A program made the position numbers and the translations under genes. A stretch of DNA of 64,000 nucleotides from Prosopocoilus inquinatus (taxonomy: Eukaryota; Arthropoda; Insecta; Coleoptera; Lucanidae): the NCBI GenBank assembly GCA_036172665.1, contig CM069877.1, positions 23,523,001-23,587,000 of the forward strand, read 5' to 3'. Position 1 is the first letter of the stretch, and each line of letters begins with the position of its first letter. Positions 1 through 63,890 of this stretch are shown here, in pieces. Under the pieces are notes generated by a model, which was not told where the DNA came from, made no database searches, and worked only from the letters and a program-made list of their open reading frames with translations.

Positions 1-376
1 ACAGATAAAATAGCGACATCTTACTATCGCTTTTTGGCCTGACATTGGAGTAGGATAGACAAATTGAAGCGGGATTTGCTCCTAATAAGTCCCCCATGCA
101 AGGCGGCCATGCTTGCTGTCAAAGCATAATGAAAATTTTTAGAAAAATTTTGTGCCCAAGCAGGGCTGAAACAGCTGTCCAGAGGCTGCTCGAGGTTTTC
201 ACTGCAATCAAAAACGATTTGCACAAAATTTTTCTAAAAATTTTCATTATGCTTTGACAGCAAGCATGGGCGCCTTGCATGGGGGACTTATTAGGAGCAA
301 ATCCCGCTTCAATTTGTCTATCCTACTGCAATGTCAGATCAATAAGCGATAGTAAGATGTCGCTATTTTATCTGTT
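1..376. repeat. Truncated hammerhead-retrozyme foldback
   Basis: Two inverted arms (about 1-150 and 213-376) end in the same ACAGATAAAATAGCGAC sequence and belong to the family that forms the tandem array at 32.1-33.5 kb. Between them a direct copy keeps only the 3' half of a hammerhead ribozyme: helix II 3' strand, GAAA, the CAGCTG helix III hexamer, the GTC cleavage triplet and the 3' helix I strand (about 155-197). The CTGAAGA core half is missing, so this copy cannot self-cleave alone. The left edge is cut by the window, so no target duplication can be checked. Confidence 0.8.
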
Positions 377-746
377 CAGTAATTTTTTTTATTATAATGG
401 TATATTTTTCTTGAATTATTGTATTTTTTAGCAGTAAGTGACGAGAAAACAAATTTTTTTATTGAGTTATAACACTAACAGATAAGTAACATGATTTTTT
501 TAAATTTTAGATAAAGTTGGCCATGAAAAGCAAAAAGAAGACGAAGTGGCGACCTACAATAAGAACAAAAGAAGTTATTGGAAATTATGTAGTAAATTTT
601 TATGTAGTGTATCTTTCTACGGCCTCCATTTATCTAAAATTTAAAAAGTCACATACAGTACAAACAAGTAACAAAGAAATTAACAAAATTAACAAAGCAA
701 ATGAAAAGTATCCTTACTATTGCAAAATTGTAACATTGTAAAATAA
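377..746. other. AT-rich spacer, no convincing gene
   Basis: A short open frame (517-741, +) follows an acceptor-like TTTTAG, but it has no recognisable domain and no downstream donor. It lies in what is probably a UTP25 intron. I see no other feature here. Confidence 0.4.
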
Positions 747-1815
747 CTACAAAGCTTGTTCAAATTGCCTGCCATTCATGCGGAGGCAATTTCTTATTCG
801 TGATACAACACCCTCTCTGGTTGCTCGTCGTATTTCCATGGGATTGAAATTTGGAAAGCAATTTATAACTCGATTTTCGAGATCTTGCCTATCATTTACA
901 GGTTCACGATAAACCTCCGATTTAATTTTACCCCACAGATGGAAATCCAATGGCGTAAGATCAGGTGATCGCGGGGGCCATCTCAAAGGACCGTGGCGTC
1001 CTATCCATCGATTTGGAAAAAGTTCGTTTAACTGCTCTCCCACTTCCTTAGTACTGTGTGCTGGAGCTCCATCTAGCTGATACCAACAATTAAAATAAGC
1101 ATTTAATGGTAAATTTTCTAAAAAATTTGTCACCACTGTTCTCAAAATGTCTAAATAACGACGAGATTTTAGATTTTCGTTATAAAATTAGGAACATCTG
1201 TTATCCTTCAAAATTACAAAAACCTTAAAACTAAATTTATTTTGGAATCCTCTCTCTCTCTAATAAAATGTGGATTTTCCCTTGCCCATACGTGAGAATT
1301 CTGCCTATTTAAAATTCCTTCATGAGTAAACTTAGCCTCATCTGTCCAAATGATCTTCTGCATGAAATGGTGGTCTTCTTGATAATGTGTCAAAAGTGCT
1401 TCACAAAATCGCATTCGAATCGCCGGATCTTCTGGTTGCAAAGCGTTATCAGTAACGAACTTGTAATCATGTAATTTATGCTTGTGCAGAATTCTTTGTA
1501 TGGATGAAAGTGCGACATTTAACTCGTGTTCAGCAGCGGCGATAGATGCTCGCGGATAAACTTGAAAGAATGCCAAAACAGAAATTTCGTTTTCTTCATT
1601 GCCAGTTACAGGGCACAACGAAGTTTTCTTTGGTCTAACGGTACCACTTCTTAAAAAGTTACGTTCATACCTTTTAAATTTTTTTCGGTCATTGGCGGTA
1701 ACTGCGGATACATTTCATTAAATCTTCTACATGTTCTCGTAACAATTTTATTGCATTCTCCATGAATGTAAAATACATTTAATAATTGTTCATTAGAATA
1801 ACCAAAATTATTCAT
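747..1815 (-). pseudogene. Broken Tc1/mariner-like transposase with DUF4817-type head
   Basis: Read on the minus strand from an ATG at 1815. The first ~45 codons resemble the insect DUF4817 helix-turn-helix head (a YIHGECN-type stretch, then R..N..YP). A frameshift near 1660-1680 leads into the next part, which holds WTDEAKF (first catalytic Asp) at about 1285-1330. Then 1145-1214 has another frame change with sequence lost. The last part holds QLDGAPAHS (second Asp), RWIGR, and WPPRSPDLTPLDFHLWG (third acidic position, 36 residues after the second). This is the cut-and-paste DDE enzyme class often called Tc3-like or SETMAR-like in insect annotations. With two frame breaks it is inactive. It sits antisense in what is probably a UTP25 intron. 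I found no clear terminal repeats. Confidence 0.85.
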
Positions 1816-18765: not shown

Positions 18766-19370
18766 ATTAATTAATTTATTGTTACTTTGTTTATGTTATG
18801 TTGTATTATGTTGAACAGCACATGTTGTTAAGACAGTAAATAATGAGGAACATTATTCAATTGGAACCTGAAAAATAATTTCATTTGTTTCACCGCCTAC
18901 TTTTTCGAATGAAGCTCTAATCAACGTAACCATGCATTTGTTAATTAACGATTTATGTTTCTAATTAATTAGTTAACTATGGCTTGTGACATATCATTGT
19001 AAAGATAATTTTTTGCAGTTTTAGAAAACGTAATAAAATTGGATACATTGCATTTAAAAATTTGAATTTATTTGTTACACCGAACACATTTGATGCTCAA
19101 TTGTTTTTCGCGATTAAGGCAAATAATAGAAAATTAAATGTGGAACAACTTTGCTTCTATAACTATTTGTCGTACCGCTTACAGTAGCCGACATATCTGC
19201 CCTGACAGCCAAAATGAAACAAACTGTATACAGGTGTCCCAACAGTGCGTTTTCGGGCTATATCAAGATAACTACTGTAGCATAAAATTCTCTTCTACTG
19301 TACAGGGCGAATCAAAACATTGGTACTGGATAATCACAAAGCAACACAAAACCTGTGGCTGTAATCCAAA

Positions 19371-19559
19371 TAAATAGTGAGAAAACCCCTCGACCACATT
19401 AATTCACTGAAAGCGAATACGTATTTCGGTAACGAAGTTACCATCTTCAGCGCTAAACTGATTTATCATCAGTTTAGCGCTGAAGATGGTAACTTCGTTA
19501 CCGAAATACGTATTCGCTTTCAGTGAATTAATGTGGTCGAGGGGTTTTCTCACTATTTA
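19371..19559. repeat. Near-perfect palindrome from a Penelope-type terminal repeat
   Basis: About 92-bp arms with a 5-bp loop near 19463-19467, flanked by TAAATAG/CTATTTA. Each arm carries the CTGAAGATGG..CCGAAATACGTA block typical of Penelope-like terminal sequence, and so a hammerhead-like motif on each strand. Confidence 0.85.
19476..19518 (+). ncRNA. Hammerhead-like motif (type I, Penelope class)
   Basis: Helix I AGCG (19476-19479) pairs CGCT (19515-19518). Core CTGAAGA at 19480-19486, one extra T, helix II GGTAAC/GTTACC with a TTC loop, GAAA at 19503-19506, then helix III TACGTA and TT at the cleavage position. The helix III loop ACGU is self-complementary, as in hammerheads that work as dimers. 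Oddities: the extra base between the core and helix II, and U rather than C at the cleavage site, both likely to lower activity. A mirror copy lies on the minus strand in the left arm (core at 19444-19450). Confidence 0.55.
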
Positions 19560-19790
19560 ATTGGTACTGGATACAACTTTTTAATTTCAAATGGTGCACC
19601 CTATATATGATGTTAAATTTGGACTGCCCATTTTTTGTTTACCATAATTTACGCCTAAATCTAATCGGTCTGGAAATATTTAACATTTTATCTAAAAATT
19701 GGCATTTGCAGCCATTATTTTATTTGTTCTTATTTTATTTATTTTTAACTCAAAGAAAAAGATTTTTGGTACAAGTGTAGTTGATACTTA

Positions 19791-21735: not shown

Positions 21736-22078
21736 TTAATTAAAAAATCTGTATTGAAACTGTTTATACTTTTTAGTCTGTTAAAAATATGCATTTATTT
21801 GATCTCTAACATAAGAAACCGTATGGATACTTTTAGTTAATACGACCCTAGCTCCAGCCTTTCGGGTTTGTCGCGGAGGCGTAATGGTTGCTAATTATGA
21901 TTAATTGTGATTGCGACCGACTTACTACATGTTCGAAGTTCGAAGCAATTTTCACAGAACAATAACCGACAGACGAAAATTCCATCTCTCACGTAAAATA
22001 TACATTGGCATTGGGGATCGAATCCACGCCTGAAGTTGTCCCCCCTCCCTCCAATTGTCAGTTCCGTTGCCAGCAAAA

Positions 22079-22550
22079 CCTAACATTGCAGTAGGATAGA
22101 CAAATTGAAGCGGGATTTGCTCCTAATGAGTCCCCCATGCAAGGCGGCCATGCTTGCTGTCAAAGCATAATGAAAGATTTTAGAAAAATTTTAGATCAAA
22201 AAGCGATAGTAAGATGTCGCTATTTTATATGTTCATCATTCTTACATCGCATTTGCGAATAAATAGGGCAAGTCGTTTTTGGTCTGCAGTGGGAATGTCG
22301 AGCTACGTTTCTGCTGAAGAAGCCCCAAACAGGGCTGAAACAGCTGTCCAGAGGCTGCTCGAGGTTCTCACTGCAATCAAAAACGATTTGCACAAAAAAT
22401 TTTTCTAAAATCTTTCATTATGCTTTGACAGCAAGCATGGCCGCCTTGCATGGGGGACTCATTATGAGCAAATCCCGCTTCAATTTGTCTATCCTATTGC
22501 AATGTTAGGTCAAAAAGCGATAGTAAGATGTCGCTATTTTATATGTTCAA
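22079..22550. repeat. Hammerhead-retrozyme foldback, copy at 22 kb
   Basis: An inverted, truncated arm (about 22079-22193) is followed by a direct unit with a complete hammerhead and then the same arm in direct orientation, ending TCGCTATTTTATATGTTC. The architecture (truncated inverted piece, then direct copy) is common for Penelope-type insertions. No clear target duplication. Confidence 0.8.
22298..22362 (+). ncRNA. Hammerhead ribozyme, type I
   Basis: Helix I TCGAG/CTCGA and TTCTG/CAGAG (with a T.G wobble), core CTGAAGA at 22314-22320, helix II AGCCC/GGGCT with loop CAAACA, GAAA at 22337-22340, helix III CAGCTG, cleavage after GTC at 22348. All invariant core positions are present. Outside it CAGTGGGAA pairs with TTCTCACTG, extending helix I. 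Compared with the 32-kb copies, one outer pair has changed T-A to C-G on both sides, and the helix II loop differs only in an unpaired base. Confidence 0.85.
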
Positions 22551-27767: not shown

Positions 27768-28127
27768 TTAGGTAAAATTTAAACTAACTAGTGAAACTAA
27801 AAGAAAATACCAAATACCATTTTGCAGTGGGCACACGCAACTCTCAGGGATGGCAGTCTTCATTTTGTGGTAATTAATTTCTTTCTCGTAGCCATTCCAC
27901 AGAAACACGTAGTAAAGCGACAACATAATAGCCGCCAAAGACACGAAAAAGACATACGCTACCACAGTCAACACTCTGATCAATTTCTTCTTGTGCTTGG
28001 GCTCGTACAATCTATCTTTGGATTCTTCACCGGCGAATTTGACGCTCGTATCAAGACTTGACGTCTTGGTCCACTGTTGCGGTTCACAGTTGAGTTTGAG
28101 GCTGTTGTTGGAAATTTTGCACGACAT
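27768..28127 (-). CDS. InaF-motif single-pass membrane protein
   Basis: 119 codons from ATG at 28127. Residues 1-45 are hydrophilic, KHKKK (44-48) precedes a transmembrane helix at about 50-77 with the InaF motif (LIRVLTVVAYVFFVSLAAI, then LSLYYVFLW). The positive cluster before the helix predicts a cytoplasmic N-terminus. InaF-motif proteins are small membrane proteins; Drosophila InaF-D is needed for TRP channel function in photoreceptors, and INAFM1/2 are the vertebrate members. The tail after about residue 85 looks poor (ends in a second hydrophobic run) and may be read-through into an intron; GGTATTT after ..CTGCAAAAT would be a weak donor. A paralogue lies 16.8 kb away on the same strand. 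The family call rests on the motif; function here is inference. Confidence 0.75.
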   Translation of the reverse strand: MSCKISNNSLKLNCEPQQWTKTSSLDTSVKFAGEESKDRLYEPKHKKKLIRVLTVVAYVFFVSLAAIMLSLYYVFLWNGYEKEINYHKMKTAIPESCVCPLQNGIWYFLLVSLVSLNFT

Positions 28128-28170
28128 ATTACCGCCCGAAAACGGCGCGCCGAACGAGAGTTTAATTATA
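28128..28170 (-). promoter_or_regulatory. CG-rich start region of the InaF-like gene
   Basis: Directly upstream of the ATG the minus strand reads CTCGTTCGGCGCGCCGTTTT, a small CG-rich patch in AT-rich surroundings, with no splice acceptor before the ATG. This fits a short 5' UTR and a TATA-less start. Position of the start is inferred. Confidence 0.35.
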
Positions 28171-28782
28171 AATTGATGTCTGGAAATTTATTTTCATTGT
28201 TTACGTTAAACAAGACCGACTCACAATCTGTCATCGTAGGTAGAAGGCGCAAATTTGCGTTTGATACGTGAAATTAGGACACCGTTTTGGTTTCGTTCGT
28301 TTTGTAAATCAATAGCGTCCGCTGGATATTTAGCCATTGCGCATTCTCTGCAATTTGATTTTTTCCGCCTCGTAAACGTTACAGAAATATCACGCCTGGT
28401 GTGCGAGTTCGTCGATTGAATTTTAAAAATAACTCACGGTATTCGAAATATGGAAAATTAATTTTATGTTTAAAGCATTTCTCTCTTGGGATCAACTGAA
28501 TTATACTCTATTTTTTTTCTGATAGGCAGTAAACGCGAAGTTGTAAAAGAACTTGGCTGTCCTATTAGTTCGTTATTTGTGTTCTTTTCTTTATTTTATT
28601 AAAACAGCAACTAGTTAATAACGATTGGGATCAAGTTTGAAATTTTTTGTCGTCTGCTATTTGTGTAATACGTTATACTAATCTGTATAATAATCTATAA
28701 AAAAAATACAGTATAACTAAAAATTTCTTTCTATTTTGTTTTTAACTATAATTAATTGTCAACGAACAACAGCAATAGATGT
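28171..28782. other. Noncoding upstream of the InaF-like gene
   Basis: No repeat or exon that I can support; likely promoter-proximal sequence. Confidence 0.3.
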
Positions 28783-32018: not shown

Positions 32019-32472
32019 GGGGCATTCAACGGATACAATCGATTCACAATCGATTTATGATTACATACAGTTTAGCGTTCAACGTATATGAATCGATTCA
32101 ACATCGATTGTTAAATTTTTAACAGATAAAATAGCGACATCTTACTATCGCTTTTTGACCTGACATTGCAGTAGGGTAGACAAATTGAAGCGGGATTTGC
32201 TCCTAATAAGTTCCCCATGCAAGGCGGCCATGCTTGCTGTCAAAGCATAATGAAAGATTTTAGAAAAATTTTGTGCAAATCGTTTTTGATTGCAGCGAGA
32301 ACCTCGAGCAGCCTCTGGACAGCTGTTTCAGCCCTGCTTGGGGCTTCTTCAGCAGAGACTGCAATGTCAGGTCAAAAAGCGATAGTAAGATGTCGCTATT
32401 TTATCTGTTCATCACTCTTACATCGCAAATGCGAATAAATTGGGCAAGTCGTTTTTGTTTGCAGCGGGAATG

Positions 32473-32537
32473 TCGAGCTACGTCTCTGCTGAAGAAGCCC
32501 CAAGCAGGGCTGAAACAGCTGTCCAGAGGCTGCTCGA
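32473..32537 (+). ncRNA. Hammerhead ribozyme, array unit 1
   Basis: Helix I TCGAG/CTCGA and CTCTG/CAGAG, separated by internal loops CTACGT and GCTG suited to loop contacts. Core CTGAAGA at 32489-32495; helix II AGCCC/GGGCT, loop CAAGCA; GAAA at 32512-32515; helix III A-U and C-G with a self-complementary AGCU loop; cleavage after GTC at 32523. Outside, GCAGCGGGAA (32461-32470) pairs TTCTCGCTGC (32540-32549), and a TCGTTTTTG/CAAAAACGA stem follows, so the RNA is a long rod. All core bases fit the family consensus. Confidence 0.9.
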
Positions 32538-32783
32538 GGTTCTCGCTGCAATCAAAAACGATTTGCACAAAATTTTTCTAAAATCTTTCATTATGCTTTG
32601 ACAGCAAGCATGGCCGCCTTGCATGGGGAACTTATTAGGAGCAAATCCCGCTTCAATTTGTCTACCCTACTGCAATGTCAGGTCAAAAAGCGATAGTAAG
32701 ATGTCGCTATTTTATCTGTTCATCACTCTTACATCGCAAATGCGAATAAATTGGGCAAGTCGTTTTTGTTTGCAGCGGGAATG

Positions 32784-32848
32784 TCGAGCTACGTCTCTGC
32801 TGAAGAAGCCCCAAGCAGGGCTGAAACAGCTGTCCAGAGGCTGCTCGA
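32784..32848 (+). ncRNA. Hammerhead ribozyme, array unit 2
   Basis: Same sequence and fold as unit 1; predicted cleavage after position 32834. Cleavage at units 1 and 2 would release a 311-nt RNA. Confidence 0.9.
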
Positions 32849-33101
32849 GGTTCTCGCTGCAATCAAAAACGATTTGCACAAAAAAAAAATTTTTTCTAAA
32901 ATCTTTCATTATGCTTTGACAGCAAGCATGGCCGCCTTGCATGGGGAACTTATTAGGAGCAAATCCCGCTTCAATTTGTCTACCCTACTGCAATGTCAGG
33001 TCAAAAAGCGATAGTAAGATGTCGCTATTTTATCTGTTCATCACTCTTACATCGCAAATGCGAATAAATTGGGCAAGTCGTTTTTGTTTGCAGCGGGAAT
33101 G

Positions 33102-33166
33102 TCGAGCTACGTCTCTGCTGAAGAAGCCCCAAGCAGGGCTGAAACAGCTGTCCAGAGGCTGCTCGA
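33102..33166 (+). ncRNA. Hammerhead ribozyme, array unit 3
   Basis: Same sequence and fold as unit 1; predicted cleavage after 33152, releasing a 318-nt RNA from the unit before it because of a longer A-run. Confidence 0.9.
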
Positions 33167-33412
33167 GGTTCTCGCTGCAATCAAAAACGATTTGCACAAA
33201 ATTTTTCTAAAATCTTTCATTATGCTTTGACAGCAAGCATGGCCGCCTTGCATGGTGAACTTATTAGGAGCAAATCCCGCTTCAATTTGTCTACCCTACT
33301 GCAATGTCAGGTCAAAAAGCGATAGTAAGATGTCGCTATTTTATCTGTTCATCACTCTTACATCGCAAATGCGAATAAATTGGGCAAGTCGTTTTTGTTT
33401 GCAGCGGGAATG

Positions 33413-33477
33413 TCGAGCTACGTCTCTGCTGAAGAAGCCCCAAGCAGGGCTGAAACAGCTGTCCAGAGGCTGCTCGA
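33413..33477 (+). ncRNA. Hammerhead ribozyme, array unit 4
   Basis: Same fold; predicted cleavage after 33463. The unit ends 50 bp later in an A-run, so no full-length RNA lies downstream. Confidence 0.9.
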
Positions 33478-35277
33478 GGTTCTCGCTGCAATCAAAAACG
33501 ATTTGCACAAAAAAAAAAAAAAATTTTCTTGTTAAATTTTTAATCGTCAAAATTTTACGATGCAAGTGATGTGATTAAATATGGCGTCGAAGTGTCATTT
33601 GCTGTCAAAGATAAGAAGTGGTGTGGTTATGTGTGCTAGTTGTTTATTTCAGAAATAAGTAAAAAGAGACTTATGCTCTTTAATAAAATGGACCTTAGAA
33701 ATTATACCTTGTGCAAGTGGCTATATTTGCATCTTACGAAGAAATACATCATTTAAAAGTGCTATTATTCCAGTTTTATGGGATTACTTTGAGACATGAA
33801 AGACAGAAATTACAAGGAACGTGAACGTTAATTTTGAATGAAAAAAGCGATTCAGTTTGTCACATCTGATCAAATCGACCGAATATTTCTCCCTCATTAT
33901 GAGTTTTAATTACTTTAAGGTATTTTGCCAAGGTCTGCTACCAGTTTGAATTAGGTAAGTAATATATTTAATTTTAAACTCAAAAATTAGCGCCTTTTCC
34001 AAACGTGTACCAACTATCACTTGGGATTCCGTTCCCCGTTTGACATTTGTAAATTGCAGTTGTGTGTGAGTAAAATATTCGTGTTTAACCTTAATTTTAT
34101 TTTGTAGATGTTTCATATGGTCCAATGGAATATTCCTAGCCAAACTTCACCAACTCGAATTGTAGTAAAGTTTGTCATGACATTGCAAGCAATTTCTACG
34201 CTGCTGCATGTTCTCTGAATACTTATATTACAAACTAGCCAGGTGCAGAAGGGATGCTCAAGATTATAAATATGAACTTCTTCAGTGGTTCAAAATGAGG
34301 TGAAGGTAAAATGATTGGATTTGTTCATATAATTAGATAAATTAACCCGTTTATATAATTTTCATACACACATTCTTTTGTTACAGATGTTTTAGAGATT
34401 ACTGCTTTACTTTCTTGAAGCAGTGCGTTTTTGGCAACAAATTATATGTGACATCCTTTTCATCTAAAGAACAATAACTATTTCGTATTCGTTTATTAGT
34501 TATATGTGGATAATGAAAGGACGTTGTAAATTTGTTTAAGAAAAAAATAATGGTTGTTGAAAACTGGAATAAACAATAATTATGTATAAGCACGATGGAC
34601 AATATAACAGGTGACCCAACCAGAGTATTCGGCTGTACGTTGGTATGTGCAGGAAAGCATATGGTCAATGTGCAACAGCGATAGCTGAATGCAGGGAAGC
34701 AAAACATCATTGTGCGAGAGATAACTGTGCTTAATCCTTCAGCATGAGATAACATAAATTATTTCTTACATTTGTGTGCCCCAACTGAATGTGCCATCTT
34801 ATTGCTTTATAATCCTGTATCGTGTGTAAAAGTAATATGTGTGAACGCACGAAACACTTAACTAATAAAGTATTACGATCTCCATGACTTCATTTCGATT
34901 AAATATAAAGGTGCATTAGCGCTGCATACACAAGATACATTTGGTTGATGTTATATGCGCAGACACAACACATTTGAAAATAGTTTGCATGAATGGTCAA
35001 TGTATATTGTGTACAATGTCCTAATTAATAATTACAGATGATTTGAATGCAGTACATCAGATCTCAATTAGAGAATAAACTTTCTATTTTGCAATTAATT
35101 TGCAACTTCATTTTCAATACTTAATGCAACTATTCCTGGTTAGAGGTTGTAGTTCACCTGTCACGATAAACCACTGACGTTTATAATTAATCGGTTTATT
35201 TGTTGAATGCCCGTAGTGCGTTTATGAATCGATTCGATCCGATTATAATTAATCGATTTGTTTGTTCAATGCCCTTA

Positions 35278-42965: not shown

Positions 42966-44356
42966 AACTCATTCGAAATTAAGATTTTGAACTAAACATG
43001 TCTAAGGAATTCAGAAGTCTTAAAGGGAAAAAGGAAATTTTTATGTTTTTTGCCAAAATCTAGGGAAATTTGAACAAAATTCTTTGAAGGAAAAAATATT
43101 ATTTAATAAGAGAAATAAGATAAAAAATAGAATAGGTTGTGATGCTGCCTCTATTAATACATAACTTACTTATAACCAAATTTTGTTGCAAATCTAAAAA
43201 TCTAAAAATAAGCAATTATAACTGTTTGCAGCGAAACCCTCGAGCAGTTATTTTTTTGTGATTTTAAAATTTTATTGATTTTTATATACGCCGTGTGCAA
43301 TGTTTATCGCAATAAAAAAATTAAGGGAAGTGTTTTTTATACTCGTCCCGCTCTGCTGATTTGTAAGTTGCCTACCTTAAAGCTAGGGAAATCTAGGGAA
43401 ACATAAATCTAGGGAATTTGCAAAATTTCATCTGGCAACCCTACCCTTGACTATTCTTGGCGTTTTCCAGTTGTTTTGAAATTGTTTTCCTGCAATAATA
43501 TTTTGAAACTTTTAATTCGATTTGTTTGATTCGATCTTTTTTCATTTTCTGCATTTGAAAATATACACTTTGAAGTGTAATGGACCTTATAACTAAGTTT
43601 TCACTTTTCTGAGTCAGTAAGTCTGTTCAGAAATTAAGAAAACAAAACCATCTGCATATTTGTGTGCTAATCAAAATTTTGTTTTTTTACTTTAGGCTTC
43701 GAACAGGCGCCGGGTTGTTTTGCAATCTCTGCAACCCCTATAGCTACGCCACTGCCTGTACAACAACAAAAACTTACACTAAATTGAATTACATTTCAAT
43801 AACAAAACAAAAACATATTAAGTAACTTTCGATTTATTTCTGAAAGCTTCCGGATTAGACACGCGAAGAATTTTAACGCACGGTTGGAATTGTTGCACTG
43901 CAAAAATAGATTTGATTGAGCACAAACACTTCAGGCTATGATGTTTCTCCGTGATAACGTTAACAAGATTTATTCTAACAAAAAAAAATACGATAAAAAC
44001 ACGCCGCATTATGTGTCAATCATGAGACTCGGAACATGCGGTTCGATAAATAAATTCGCAATGTGAATGCAACAAAAAGAAAGTAAATTACTTTCTACAG
44101 TTCCTAAGACCTTCCGATGGAAATTTAAATGTAAACTTCATTTTTACTTTTACTTGAAAATGATTGCTTTTAATAAATTAACACAATCTCTTTAAGATAA
44201 AGGTTGTAACACAGCTGAGGTTGGTGTTCGCAGTTAGTCGCGATCTTTCAAGTTTTGTAATATCTGCACTTCGTGCGCATGCTATACGTTCACGGTTTAC
44301 AATGACAGCGACCAGTTGCGACTGCGAACTTCAAGTATGTTTCAGCCTTAACTCAC
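42966..44356. other. Likely intron of the InaF-like gene, no exon found
   Basis: Lies downstream of the donor at 44356-44351 on the minus strand. CAACCCCTATAGCTACGCCACTG (ends near 43756, split here from its inverse) is a hAT-like terminus. No exon recognised. Confidence 0.35.
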
Positions 44357-44885
44357 CTTCTTTCTGAATTTCAATCGTCTTGTTCTTGGTTCCGTTTAAG
44401 TTTTCTTCGGTGTTAAATGTGGTTTCATTAACTAGAGTAGCTTGTCTCTCAAATTTCTTAGTCGACTGTGTGTAATTTTTATCAATGAGTTCCCCTGACA
44501 GACTTTGATTGTTTGGAAGTAACGCACCGGCAGTAGCGTTTCCAGATAAAAGAAGCCTTTTCAATAACGCATCGAACTCGACATCGGTAATATTAGTTTT
44601 GCCAGTTGTAAAGGTGCCATTAAAAATTTCTCGTAGCTTATCGTGAGTGATCTCGTAAGGTTCAAAGTTTTCAAATTGGGGTGCTTTTCTGGATGCCAAA
44701 GTCGGCTGCCCGTCCCACATGAATATGTAATAAACCGACAGAAGTATGGCCGCCATTGATACGCTCAGAACGTACGCCAGAACTGTCAGAACTCGCACAA
44801 TTTTGGGCCTAGATTTTGGTCCGATGTAAATATCTTCTTTTGCATTGCTGTCTTCGGAAGTCTCGTTTTCTTGTTCATCCGGCAT
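44357..44885 (-). CDS. InaF-motif protein with N-glycosylated tail (first coding exon)
   Basis: 176 codons plus one base from ATG at 44885 to donor GTGAGT (44356-44351), so the protein continues in an unseen exon. The ATG follows an acceptor TTGTTCTAG, so a 5' untranslated exon lies upstream. Residues 1-25 acidic, RPK then a transmembrane helix at about 29-56 with the InaF motif (KIVRVLTVLAYVLSVSMAAI, LSVYYIFMWDG). Basic residues before the helix predict N-in. The segment after it holds eight N-x-S/T sequons (NGT, NIT, NAT, NQS, NYT, NET, NGT, NKT), which fits an extracellular or luminal side. Shares the motif core with the gene at 27.8-28.1 kb on the same strand. By family it may assist a channel or receptor complex; the partner here is unknown. 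Confidence 0.82.
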
Positions 44886-45890
44886 GTTCTAGAACAAATA
44901 GGTAAGAATTTGAAAGATGAAAATAAGTTTTCAGTGGTCCTAAAGCTACGAGCTAACCCCGTTCTGAATTAGTGATGCGACGAGTCGAGTAGACTCACTA
45001 TCAGAATCGATTCTCAAAGGTACTCATTGTACTCGAGTAACTAATTCTGTGAACCCGAGTCAGCAGTACTCGAGTCGACTCGAATACGATACAAGTACTC
45101 GAGTATCGACTTTAGAATTTGTAGACTCGAGTCCCAAAGGTATTCGTTCTACTTGAGTAACTATTGCAGTGACACCGAGTCAGCGAAACTCGAGTCATCT
45201 CGAGTTCGATTCAAGAATTTCGAGTACCGGCTTTAGAATTAAATAACGAGTCGAGTAGACTCGATGTCAGACTGGATTTTATTGGATTCTCTTTATAGAG
45301 CCTCCTTGTCAGTTGGTAACGAGTGAATGAGTACCGAGTTTAGAATTGAGATTATGCGTGACAAGTTTCATTCGTTTTAGAAGTACTATGCTTTTGCTAA
45401 AACAGTCGACTGCCGCAATAACTTACTGTGACACTCAGACGCTTGATATCGGGGCGGCTTGGCAGCGGTCATTGTTTTTTTTTTATATTTTATGAAAAAG
45501 ATTACATAAAAAATGAATAAGTTCTAAAATTTCAAAGGGAGTACAGTTTTTTGTAACTGAAAAGGCTGTTAAATATTGTTAAATAAAAACTGAAAACTCA
45601 TACTCATTTAATGAATAATTTGTGGCTCTATATTCTATATTTTGTTTTCTTTTAAAGAAAATAATTTTAATCCAACTAAACATGCAATTACATAGTAAAT
45701 AAGTTTTTCTTTTTATTTTACACAGAGCCTGCACACTTTATTATGAAACTTAGCAAATAATATTACATTGTTACAAAATTTTAAATTTATCTCAATCGCC
45801 AGAATACATTAATAAAGAAAACACGTGACGATCGTAAATCAAGTAAAATATAGAATGAACTTTGTTATTTTAAACGGAACGTTCAATATA

Positions 45891-61538: not shown

Positions 61539-61581
61539 CGTAGATACGTATTTCGGCAGCTAAGCTGCCATCTTCAGTACG
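61539..61581 (-). ncRNA. Hammerhead-like motif in Penelope 3' terminal repeat
   Basis: Minus strand: helix I CGTA/TACG, core CTGAAGA (complement of 61571-61577), one extra T, helix II GGCAGC/GCTGCC with loop TTA, GAAA, helix III TACGTA, then TC with cleavage after the base at 61543. Against the 19.4-kb motif, helices I and II differ in sequence but stay paired while core and helix III are unchanged. The extra base before helix II is not in the textbook consensus. Confidence 0.6.
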
Positions 61582-61752
61582 CTACCAACTTGAAAGCACT
61601 AAAAAATATCTAAAAACAACCTAATCACACTGACAAAATCATAAAAATGTTAAATCTAACAACAATCTAATCATCCTAAAAGATATATAAGTCTAAATGT
61701 AAGTAAATATAAATTAATATGTGAAAATCTATAATAAACTATATACGTTATG

Positions 61753-62405: not shown

Positions 62406-63890
62406 TTAGAGTAAATCAAATAATACGGAATTAGATATTGGTCCGTTATCTGAATTCATTAAATTGTTTTTATTTTTCCGAATAAAAATAATTTCGTAAG
62501 CATTTAATTCCCTATTATTTGAAACTTCCTTAATGAGTTTTAAATTATCCTTAATAATACTATGTCCTGTATTGTAAATATGTTGTGCAACACTTGATTT
62601 CTCAAACCTATTATACCTGTAGTGACTTAAATGTTCTTTAAAACGTGTTAATATATTTCTTTTTGTTTGTCCAATATATTTACTAGTACATTCGTTACAC
62701 TTAATTTCATAAATTCCAGATATCTGTTCAACATCAACTTTATCTTTCGGGTTTCCCAATAAATTCTTTATGGTATTGTTAGTTGAAAAACCTAATCGTA
62801 AGTTTTGGGTTTTAAAACTATGTTTTAAACAAAGTTTTTTTAATCTCAAACCGGACAGAAAAATGAAGGGAAACACACTCAACACTCAATAGTAAGTACA
62901 AAGTTTTTTTAATCTCAAACCGGACAGAAAAATGAAGGGAAACACACTCAACGTTTCGCTATAGATTTATAGCTTCGTCAGGAGTGACTCCTGACGAAGC
63001 TATAAATCTATAGCGAAACGTTGAGTGTGTTTCCCTTCATTTTTCTGTCCGGTTTGAGATTAAAAAAACTTTGTACTTACTATTTTCATCGGACAAGAAC
63101 AAACTTCAATTATGTTTTAAACCTTTGGTGCAAAACGGATCGAAAGGCATTTTAACAAATTTTCCTAGAGATGAAGTTGCCGTTAAAGTGCTAGAATTTT
63201 GGACCTGTTTCCTATAGCTAATCTTCCTAATCACATTATCTACTATTTGAGGGGTATAACCGTTATGAACCGCAACATTTTTAATATAATTAAGTTCTTT
63301 ATCATATCTGGGTTTAGTAAGTGGAAAAGAGAGTAATCTATTTACTAAAAAATTTAGAGCCGCGAGTTTGTGTTGTACAGAATGTTGAGATTCATTAATT
63401 ATAAACTGGCTTGTATTTGTATCTTTACGATAAATGTCGATTTCTAATTCATTTTTGCTGTTTCTAATTATATGAGTGTCTAAAAAGGGAATCGCACCGT
63501 TTTCTTCCTTTTCGTATGTAAATTTAATACTTTCAAATTATGAATTTAATTTTCCTATAAAATCCTTCAAATCACACTTCTTGATATCAAAAATAGCAAA
63601 AATGTCATCCACATAATGTAACCAAATTCTTGAAAAATACTGATCATTATTTCTTACGTCATTTTCGAATTTACTCATAAATAAATTGACCAAAAACGGT
63701 GACAAACAGTTAGCCATTGCGGTCTCTTGAACTTGTTCAAAATACTCACAATTTATTTGAAAACAATTCTGAGACATGCAAAGAGATGTGAGCCTAAATC
63801 ATTCCTCCAATTTATCTTTATCTACATTATTAACTGTCAGTAGTTCCCGCAAATAAGTTAGTGTTTCAGGTATGGGTACACTAGGATAGG
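62406..63890 (-). pseudogene. Penelope polyprotein remnant: RT and GIY-YIG nuclease
   Basis: 63538-63777 holds the second half of the RT palm: QETAMANCLSPFLVNLFM and the catalytic HYVDDIFAIF. After a break at 63540, 63200-63520 reads EIDIYRKDTNT, AALNFLVNRLLSFPL and AVHNGYTPQIVDNVI, the usual thumb and linker. 62406-62815 holds FSTNNTIKNLLG, then the nuclease GIYEIKCNECTSKYIGQTK with R..EH, and ends in the Penelope C-terminal pattern ELNAYEIIFIRKN. The N-terminal RT part is missing (truncated) and upstream frames carry stops. A 280-bp insertion splits the linker from the nuclease. Inactive, but the domain order is clear. Confidence 0.88.
62831..63110. mobile_element. Foldback inserted in the Penelope element
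   Basis: A 12-bp duplication TATGTTTTAAAC (62819-62830 and 63111-63122) brackets it. Inside are a palindrome centred near 62986 and a direct repeat of AATCTCAAACCGGACAGAAA..CACACTCAAC. Each palindrome arm carries CTGACGAAGCTATA..TATAGCGAAACG, i.e. hammerhead core halves CTGACGA and GAAA around a helix II (GCTATA/TATAGC), on both strands. Helix I is lost at the centre, so activity is doubtful. Confidence 0.75.

Follow-up and report, generated by a model that had tools for sequence, protein, structure and literature searches.

A tandem array of 311-bp hammerhead-ribozyme units at positions 32121 to 33528 of a stretch of the genome of the beetle Prosopocoilus inquinatus belongs to a family of retrozymes whose two-armed copies share one build: two arms arranged head-to-head, with two outer ends that are fixed and unlike each other. 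The window is the whole stretch analyzed (64,000 nucleotides; positions 23523001 to 23587000 of C9) and lies within a 649.6-Mb assembly. The fixed unlike ends, spread inner ends, target-site duplications (TSDs), symmetric target, microhomology at the arm junctions, and sharing of alleles are read directly from the copies. The element is likely a non-autonomous hammerhead retrozyme copied by a Penelope-like enzyme, which would cut both strands of the target and start at two internal sites of a probably circular RNA, with the products joined through microhomology.

The genome was searched with the 311-bp unit (549 first-look candidates, best 40 scored, a sample biased to young copies) and with an older copy (positions 22187 to 22549 of the window; 1,901 first-look candidates, best 40 scored). 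Listed unit matches of the first 40 were grouped into 39 loci, which were fetched and in which 42 young insertions were listed, with old fragments in L036, L055, L058, and L062 excluded and arm limits set partly by hand. The older set comprised 20 loci (19 of the 39 grouped from the older-copy search, plus the copy at the left edge of the window). Unit numbering starts at the hammerhead cut, and inner ends were mapped with a ten-unit BLAST reference. Two sets of 36 insertions were used, one for the allele and end counts (L041 in, L063b out) and one for the junction and inner-end statistics (L063b in, L041 out).

Two-armed copies across the genome

The search for further arrays proposed in the initial annotation returned 205 unit matches in the best 40 candidates, and the older copy gave 122 in its own best 40. 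Among the young insertions, 37 had two arms, one was cut by the edge of the fetched sequence (L050b), and four had a single arm. All 37 two-armed insertions were head-to-head, the minus arm lying left of the plus arm, and all 37 carried one A end (unit positions 46 to 71) and one B end (192 to 211). Of 36 insertions, 21 had the A end at the left and 15 at the right. The inverted unit at the left of the window array, initially annotated as truncated, is indeed present, but it is the systematic second arm of a fixed architecture. Older loci (91 to 96% identical) had one A and one B end in all 12 clear two-armed insertions; a very short A arm was seen by eye in L072 and L076, and L075, L078, and L086 ran past the edge of the fetched sequence. 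At L041:2068-2685 the two retrozyme arms are separated by ~600 bp of foreign sequence.

TSDs were assigned in 38 of the 42 young insertions (36 exact; L033 and L063b by eye) and measured 12 or 13 bp in 31 of the 38. Shared flank repeats of at least 11 bp occurred in 34 of 41 insertions, compared with 36 of 7,995 mismatched flank pairs; because of this excess and the 205 unit matches, we do not regard the insertions as chance. Empty sites (n = 48; 36 young and 12 old, with L033, L063b, L070, L082, L087, and L089 excluded) tended to have AAC before and GTT after the target (A at −2 in 35, C at −1 in 22, G at +1 in 26, and T at +2 in 39), and the ninth base inside the target, counted from the A side, was A in 43. 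A two-fold symmetric target of this kind would fit a dimeric endonuclease leaving 3′ overhangs.

Inner ends did not differ from a uniform distribution (Kolmogorov-Smirnov test, P = 0.11), whereas outer ends were non-uniform (P = 1e-7); by tenths of the unit, positions 217 to 248 held 12 and positions 279 to 311 held 13 of the 72 inner ends. Arms were longer than one unit in 57 of 72 cases and crossed the cut site 134 times. An apparent cluster of inner ends at the cut site was mostly an artifact of a three-unit BLAST reference; with the ten-unit reference 3 of 72 lay within 3 nt of the cut, so run-off at cleaved ends is not claimed. Junction overlaps of at least 2 nt were found in 28 of 36 insertions (16.7% expected by chance), 26 of them 2 to 5 nt long and two 20 to 23 nt long, in a self-complementary stem.

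At site 140, T>C was mixed in none of 46 multi-unit arms (shuffled mean, 24; minimum, 12), and the two arms of one insertion agreed in 31 of 33 cases (17.8 on average and at most 27 in shuffles). Agreement between arms was 33/33 at site 139, 31/33 at site 33, and 27/27 at site 238. In L034, L038, and L042, locus-private variants filled every unit of one arm, and the other arm had none of them. Neither arm is therefore a copy of the other, and at times the two come from different molecules.

Hammerheads and neighboring elements in the window

The direct unit copies of the window array follow at steps of 311, 318, and 311 bp, the 318-bp step being a unit with a longer A-run. The four complete type I hammerheads annotated at this spacing were recovered as four identical 65-nt copies, and the perfect 15-bp duplication holds exactly (Table 1). 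The A-run annotated at the right is there, but not as a tail: positions 33509 to 33523 lie within the unit (unit CACAAAATTTTTC) and the element bases TTTTC come after them, which marks the run as an A tract expanded within the unit and not a poly(A) tail. GC content of the unit is 44.4%. The longest open stretch on a tripled unit is 96 codons, with no open reading frame (ORF) for the reverse transcriptase and GIY-YIG endonuclease of a Penelope-like element in the unit; no ends resembling long terminal repeats (LTRs) were seen at the array.

Each hammerhead consists, in order, of CUGAAGA, stem II (AGCCC-CAAGCA-GGGCU), GAA, ACAGCUGU, and the cut site between GUC and CAGAG; stem III has two base pairs with the palindromic loop AGCU, and stem I runs on into a long hairpin. 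Rfam at gathering thresholds gave nothing in the window. At relaxed thresholds the best match on the units was MIR851 (E = 0.0019; 30.5 bits, cut-off 90), which we attribute to chance similarity with the long hairpin. Hammerhead_HH9 matched at E values of 0.19 and 1.5; because Rfam thresholds were not reached, the hammerhead call rests on the core and stems as read from the sequence. When two copies are folded together, a double hammerhead is predicted in which the palindromic stem III (ACAGCUGU) has 8 bp; this predicted fold resembles the dimeric hammerheads described in axolotl retrozymes (PMC7229834). Three window copies aligned for compensatory changes in the hammerhead were nearly alike. 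A regular-expression scan for other hammerheads gave three hits. A different hammerhead-like core (CTGATGAGGCCCCAATTAGGGCCGAAA) lies at L035:3150-3450 (minus strand), where the surrounding sequence resembles a SINE by eye.

A small hammerhead element at positions 19319 to 19564, which we take to be of Penelope type from the form of its ribozyme and because of its tail, offers a comparison. Its relatives were the best 40 scored of 802 first-look candidates, and the query held the tail, so tailed arms were selected. None of these 40 loci had two tailed arms; 19 had an untailed partner arm ending at 97 to 106, one had a short piece, and in 20 the partner was not found. All 40 long arms started at query positions 1 to 6, the partner arms started at 1 to 7 in 17 of 19 cases, and all 11 TSDs read were 11 to 15 bp long. 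A rule of one long and one short arm is common to the small element and the 311-nt element, and the fixed inner end of the small element is as would be expected from copying a linear RNA to its 5′ end.

Near the right end of the window, a perfect palindrome (62888 to 63084; 98-nt arms, 1-nt center) with a hammerhead-like core lies between a GIY-YIG frame and a 143-amino-acid (143-aa) frame; by eye, its inverted arm repeats bases of the adjoining coding stretch, as self-priming would. The palindrome of the small element (19366 to 19564) has a 5-nt center. On the far side of the GIY-YIG frame, a hammerhead motif like that of the small element (CTGAAGATGGCAGC...GAAATACGTATC) occupies positions 61544 to 61584 (minus strand). 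NCBIfam gave only weak matches, far below cut-off, on the two frames. Elsewhere, upstream of a Penelope-like frame, L090 holds a retrozyme copy with its B end at L090:816; the bases before that end resemble a piece of reverse transcriptase by eye, and no frame of at least 66 aa lies there. One idea is that the 311-nt unit could be the pseudo-LTR (pLTR) of a local Penelope element.

Two further ORFs, at 27768 to 28187 and 44331 to 44888 (both minus strand), carry an InaF motif (Pfam PF15018) and are probably exons of host genes; the best named matches of the protein at 44331 to 44888 are beetle proteins. At 747 to 1714 (minus strand), two ORFs resemble a broken mariner-type transposase.

Table 1. 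Positions of the retrozyme insertion and of related features in the window
Feature	Positions	Strand	Remarks
Older copy of the 311-bp element, truncated by window edge	1-378		With fetched left neighbor (L070): head-to-head, A end left (unit 60), B end right (199), 16-bp shared flank repeat
Small hammerhead element	19319-19564		Two 97-nt arms head-to-head; 14-bp TSD ATTGGTACTGGATA; ~39 extra bases on left arm only
Older degraded head-to-head copy	22078-22549		B end (199) on the right; left side matches neither site
Left TSD TTGTTAAATTTTTAA	32108-32122		Exact 15-bp match to 33529-33543
Minus arm, unit positions 270 to 197	32121-32359	-	100% reverse complement of 32482-32720; unit mapping
B end (...TTTATCTGTT), outer end of minus arm	32121	-	AA common to B end and TSD
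Fifth hammerhead core, in inverted arm	32304-32359	-	Stem I cut down by junction; CTGAAGA at 32352 (-)
Arm junction	32358-32359		2-nt microhomology (gap -2)
Plus arm, 3.7 units	32358-33528	+	Unit 146 to A end; terminal A15 TTTTC
Type I hammerhead 1	32473-32537	+	Predicted cut after 32523
Type I hammerhead 2	32784-32848	+	Predicted cut after 32834
Type I hammerhead 3	33102-33166	+	Predicted cut after 33152
Type I hammerhead 4	33413-33477	+	Predicted cut after 33463
A end, expanded internal A tract (A15) + TTTTC	33509-33528	+	Putative reverse-transcription start site A
Right TSD TTGTTAAATTTTTAA	33529-33543		Exact 15-bp match to 32108-32122
GIY-YIG frame	62406-62885	-	
143-aa frame	63106-63537	-	Adjoins GIY-YIG frame/palindrome; 2,954 first-look candidates in genome, 150 scored

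Proposed route of copying and rival explanations

We infer transcription, cleavage, circle formation, how the target is cut, and which enzyme acts, as follows. Tandem 311-nt units would be transcribed, the hammerheads would cut the RNA, best as dimers with the 8-bp stem III, and the monomers would be closed into circles, as in known retrozymes. A Penelope-like protein dimer would cut both strands of an AT-rich, two-fold symmetric target 12 to 13 nt apart, leaving 3′ ends on both sides, and each 3′ end would prime reverse transcription within retrozyme RNA, one at site A (~46 to 71) and the other at site B (~192 to 211). Copying would run for a variable length, often more than one turn of the circle, and the two cDNA ends would be joined, mostly via 2 to 5 nt of microhomology, to give a TSD-flanked head-to-head double array bounded by one A end and one B end. 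We favor a circular RNA template, mainly because the small element stops at one fixed inner end and the 311-nt element does not. Purified PAc, a Penelope protein from Anolis, cleaves both strands and extends them, prefers AT-rich targets, starts at two internal RNA sites whose interval equals the genomic tail, and is predicted to form a dimer (PMC11167929). The GIY-YIG frame of the window and the many first-look candidates for the adjoining 143-aa frame in the genome also count in favor of this route.

Several results weigh against this route. Four of the 42 young insertions are one-armed (L045, L047, L058, and L068), and of these only L047 has a TSD, its other side being just an A-run, while three have none; three of the 20 older loci are also one-armed (L077, L087, and L089, the last two each with a TSD and a B end), and the uncounted old fragments of L036 and L058 follow the end rule only in part. 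The distance from A to B is ~140 nt in the 311-nt element, compared with ~39 nt in the local small element and 30 to 40 nt in print, and the GTT side of the target flanks was not clearly seen by eye for the small element. A less common allele at site 140, T>A, is found in some but not all units of one arm at L062, and it accounts for both disagreeing pairs of arms, which are at this locus. Variants were confined to some units in 33 of 64 variant-by-arm cases (a tally that omits L049 and most L042 variants, which were misaligned). Of these 33, 28 were each restricted to a single locus and resemble mutations that arose later or mistakes made in copying. Uniform arms could come from a homogeneous linear multimer as well. 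When a single hammerhead copy is folded, the best form mispairs the core (−29.3 versus −18.7 kcal/mol for the ribozyme).

The enzyme adds to these difficulties. The 143-aa frame had no match in Pfam, and its three relatives were distant, one with PF26215 and none named Penelope; its position suggests that it may be another part of a Penelope protein, a weak assignment. The two frames are placed as a candidate Penelope-like helper, which we do not tie to the 311-nt unit. Start sites of PAc in vitro were the same for the top and bottom strands (PMC11167929), and this lowers the odds of a strict division of labor, in which a Penelope-like dimer would use one start site per strand and copy two different RNA circles of one source simultaneously. 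We hold that refinement to be possible but doubtful; if true, it would explain the one A and one B end of each insertion, the sharing of alleles by the two arms, and the variants that fill a single arm in L034, L038, and L042.

The same enzyme with two-ended priming might instead copy an uncleaved linear multimeric transcript, with the hammerhead and circles playing no role in copying. Hammerhead activity was reported to be unnecessary for PAc insertion, and no RNA-seq reads were found to end at the cut site (PMC11167929); the 134 crossings of the cut site and the misfolding of a single hammerhead copy point the same way. We nevertheless think this template unlikely, since private variants that fill all units of one arm would need a step from one unit to an array, and since variants confined to some units recurred at a second locus in only 5 of 33 cases (2 of these in the A-run), where a linear donor would transmit them.

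Far less probable is hairpin self-priming, in which one cDNA folds back and copies itself into an inverted arm, as proposed for Penelope palindromes (PMC3846280); the inverted, head-to-head pLTRs of a rotifer, one of which carries a tail, were explained in this way (PMC3846280). Head-to-head palindromes are typical of Penelope-like elements, the two window palindromes have short centers, and the inner ends of an insertion lay on average slightly closer together than in shuffles (64 versus 77 nt; P = 0.046). Set against this, 3 of 36 insertions had their two inner ends at most 10 nt apart, where 2.4 would be expected; in three insertions a single arm has variants in all its units that the other lacks; and the outer ends are unlike in every two-armed young insertion. 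LINE-type twin priming from initiation at poly(A) could account for an A-rich end and for microhomology at the joint, and L1-type twin priming also produces inversions; we rate it as highly improbable, since the A-run lies inside the unit and only some copies have it expanded, both outer ends are fixed where LINEs and SINEs have a poly(A) terminus and a variable 5′ end, inversion is the rule in the two-armed set, and the TSDs are narrow in length with a two-fold symmetric target. Events at the DNA level, either satellite expansion by unequal crossing-over or a DNA transposon or miniature inverted-repeat transposable element, could produce tandem arrays and inverted arms, and we give them almost no credence: TSDs surround the arrays, junctions differ, arm lengths are free, and unlike outer ends take the place of terminal inverted repeats with one internal structure.

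Relation to known retrozymes and Penelope-like elements

The element fits a known kind, the animal (non-LTR) retrozyme. The initial reading of a young animal retrozyme with a link to Penelope agrees with the unit size, hammerhead type, tandem copies, TSD, and ~200 near-identical unit matches. Plant LTR retrozymes are similar in being non-autonomous, with a hammerhead and a circular RNA, and differ in their type III hammerheads, LTRs, and 4-bp TSD. They are contrasted with metazoan non-LTR retrozymes in PMC7229834. The metazoan non-LTR retrozymes of coral, mussel, and axolotl have, like the beetle element, a type I hammerhead with a very short stem III and a palindromic tetraloop, non-coding tandem units of 150 to 450 bp with GC below 50%, a TSD of more than 4 bp, and co-existing Penelope-like elements (PMC7229834). 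They differ in that head-to-head arms with two fixed unlike ends go unmentioned in the main text of that paper, where a word search found no “inverted,” “orientation,” or “opposite.” No report of a head-to-head two-ended architecture for retrozymes, or of retrozymes in beetles, was found in the literature searched, in which subscription journals were thinly covered.

Penelope-like elements share head-to-head inverted copies, a tail on one inverted end, an AT-rich target, and a TSD (PMC3846280; PMC11167929), as well as a hammerhead, two internal start sites, and extension of both strands (PMC11167929). Head-to-head arms with one end extended by a tail, their mode of insertion, were found here in 37/37 young and 12/12 old two-armed insertions. 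The 311-nt element differs from them in having no long ORF, a 311-nt repeating unit, and free inner ends, and its TSD of 12 to 13 bp compares with 8, 9, and 10 bp in published examples of Penelope-like elements.

Mobilization of retrozymes by Penelope was suggested from shared features and co-existence, and the main text of the same paper left open which enzyme mobilizes animal retrozymes and how a circle becomes an insertion (PMC7229834). As records of single events, the genome copies described here fix the two RNA start sites, the staggered and symmetric geometry of the cut, and the way in which the ends are joined. They also separate a circle-like template, with free inner ends, from a linear one, with the fixed inner ends of the small hammerhead element, and so make the Penelope hypothesis for retrozyme mobilization testable at base resolution.

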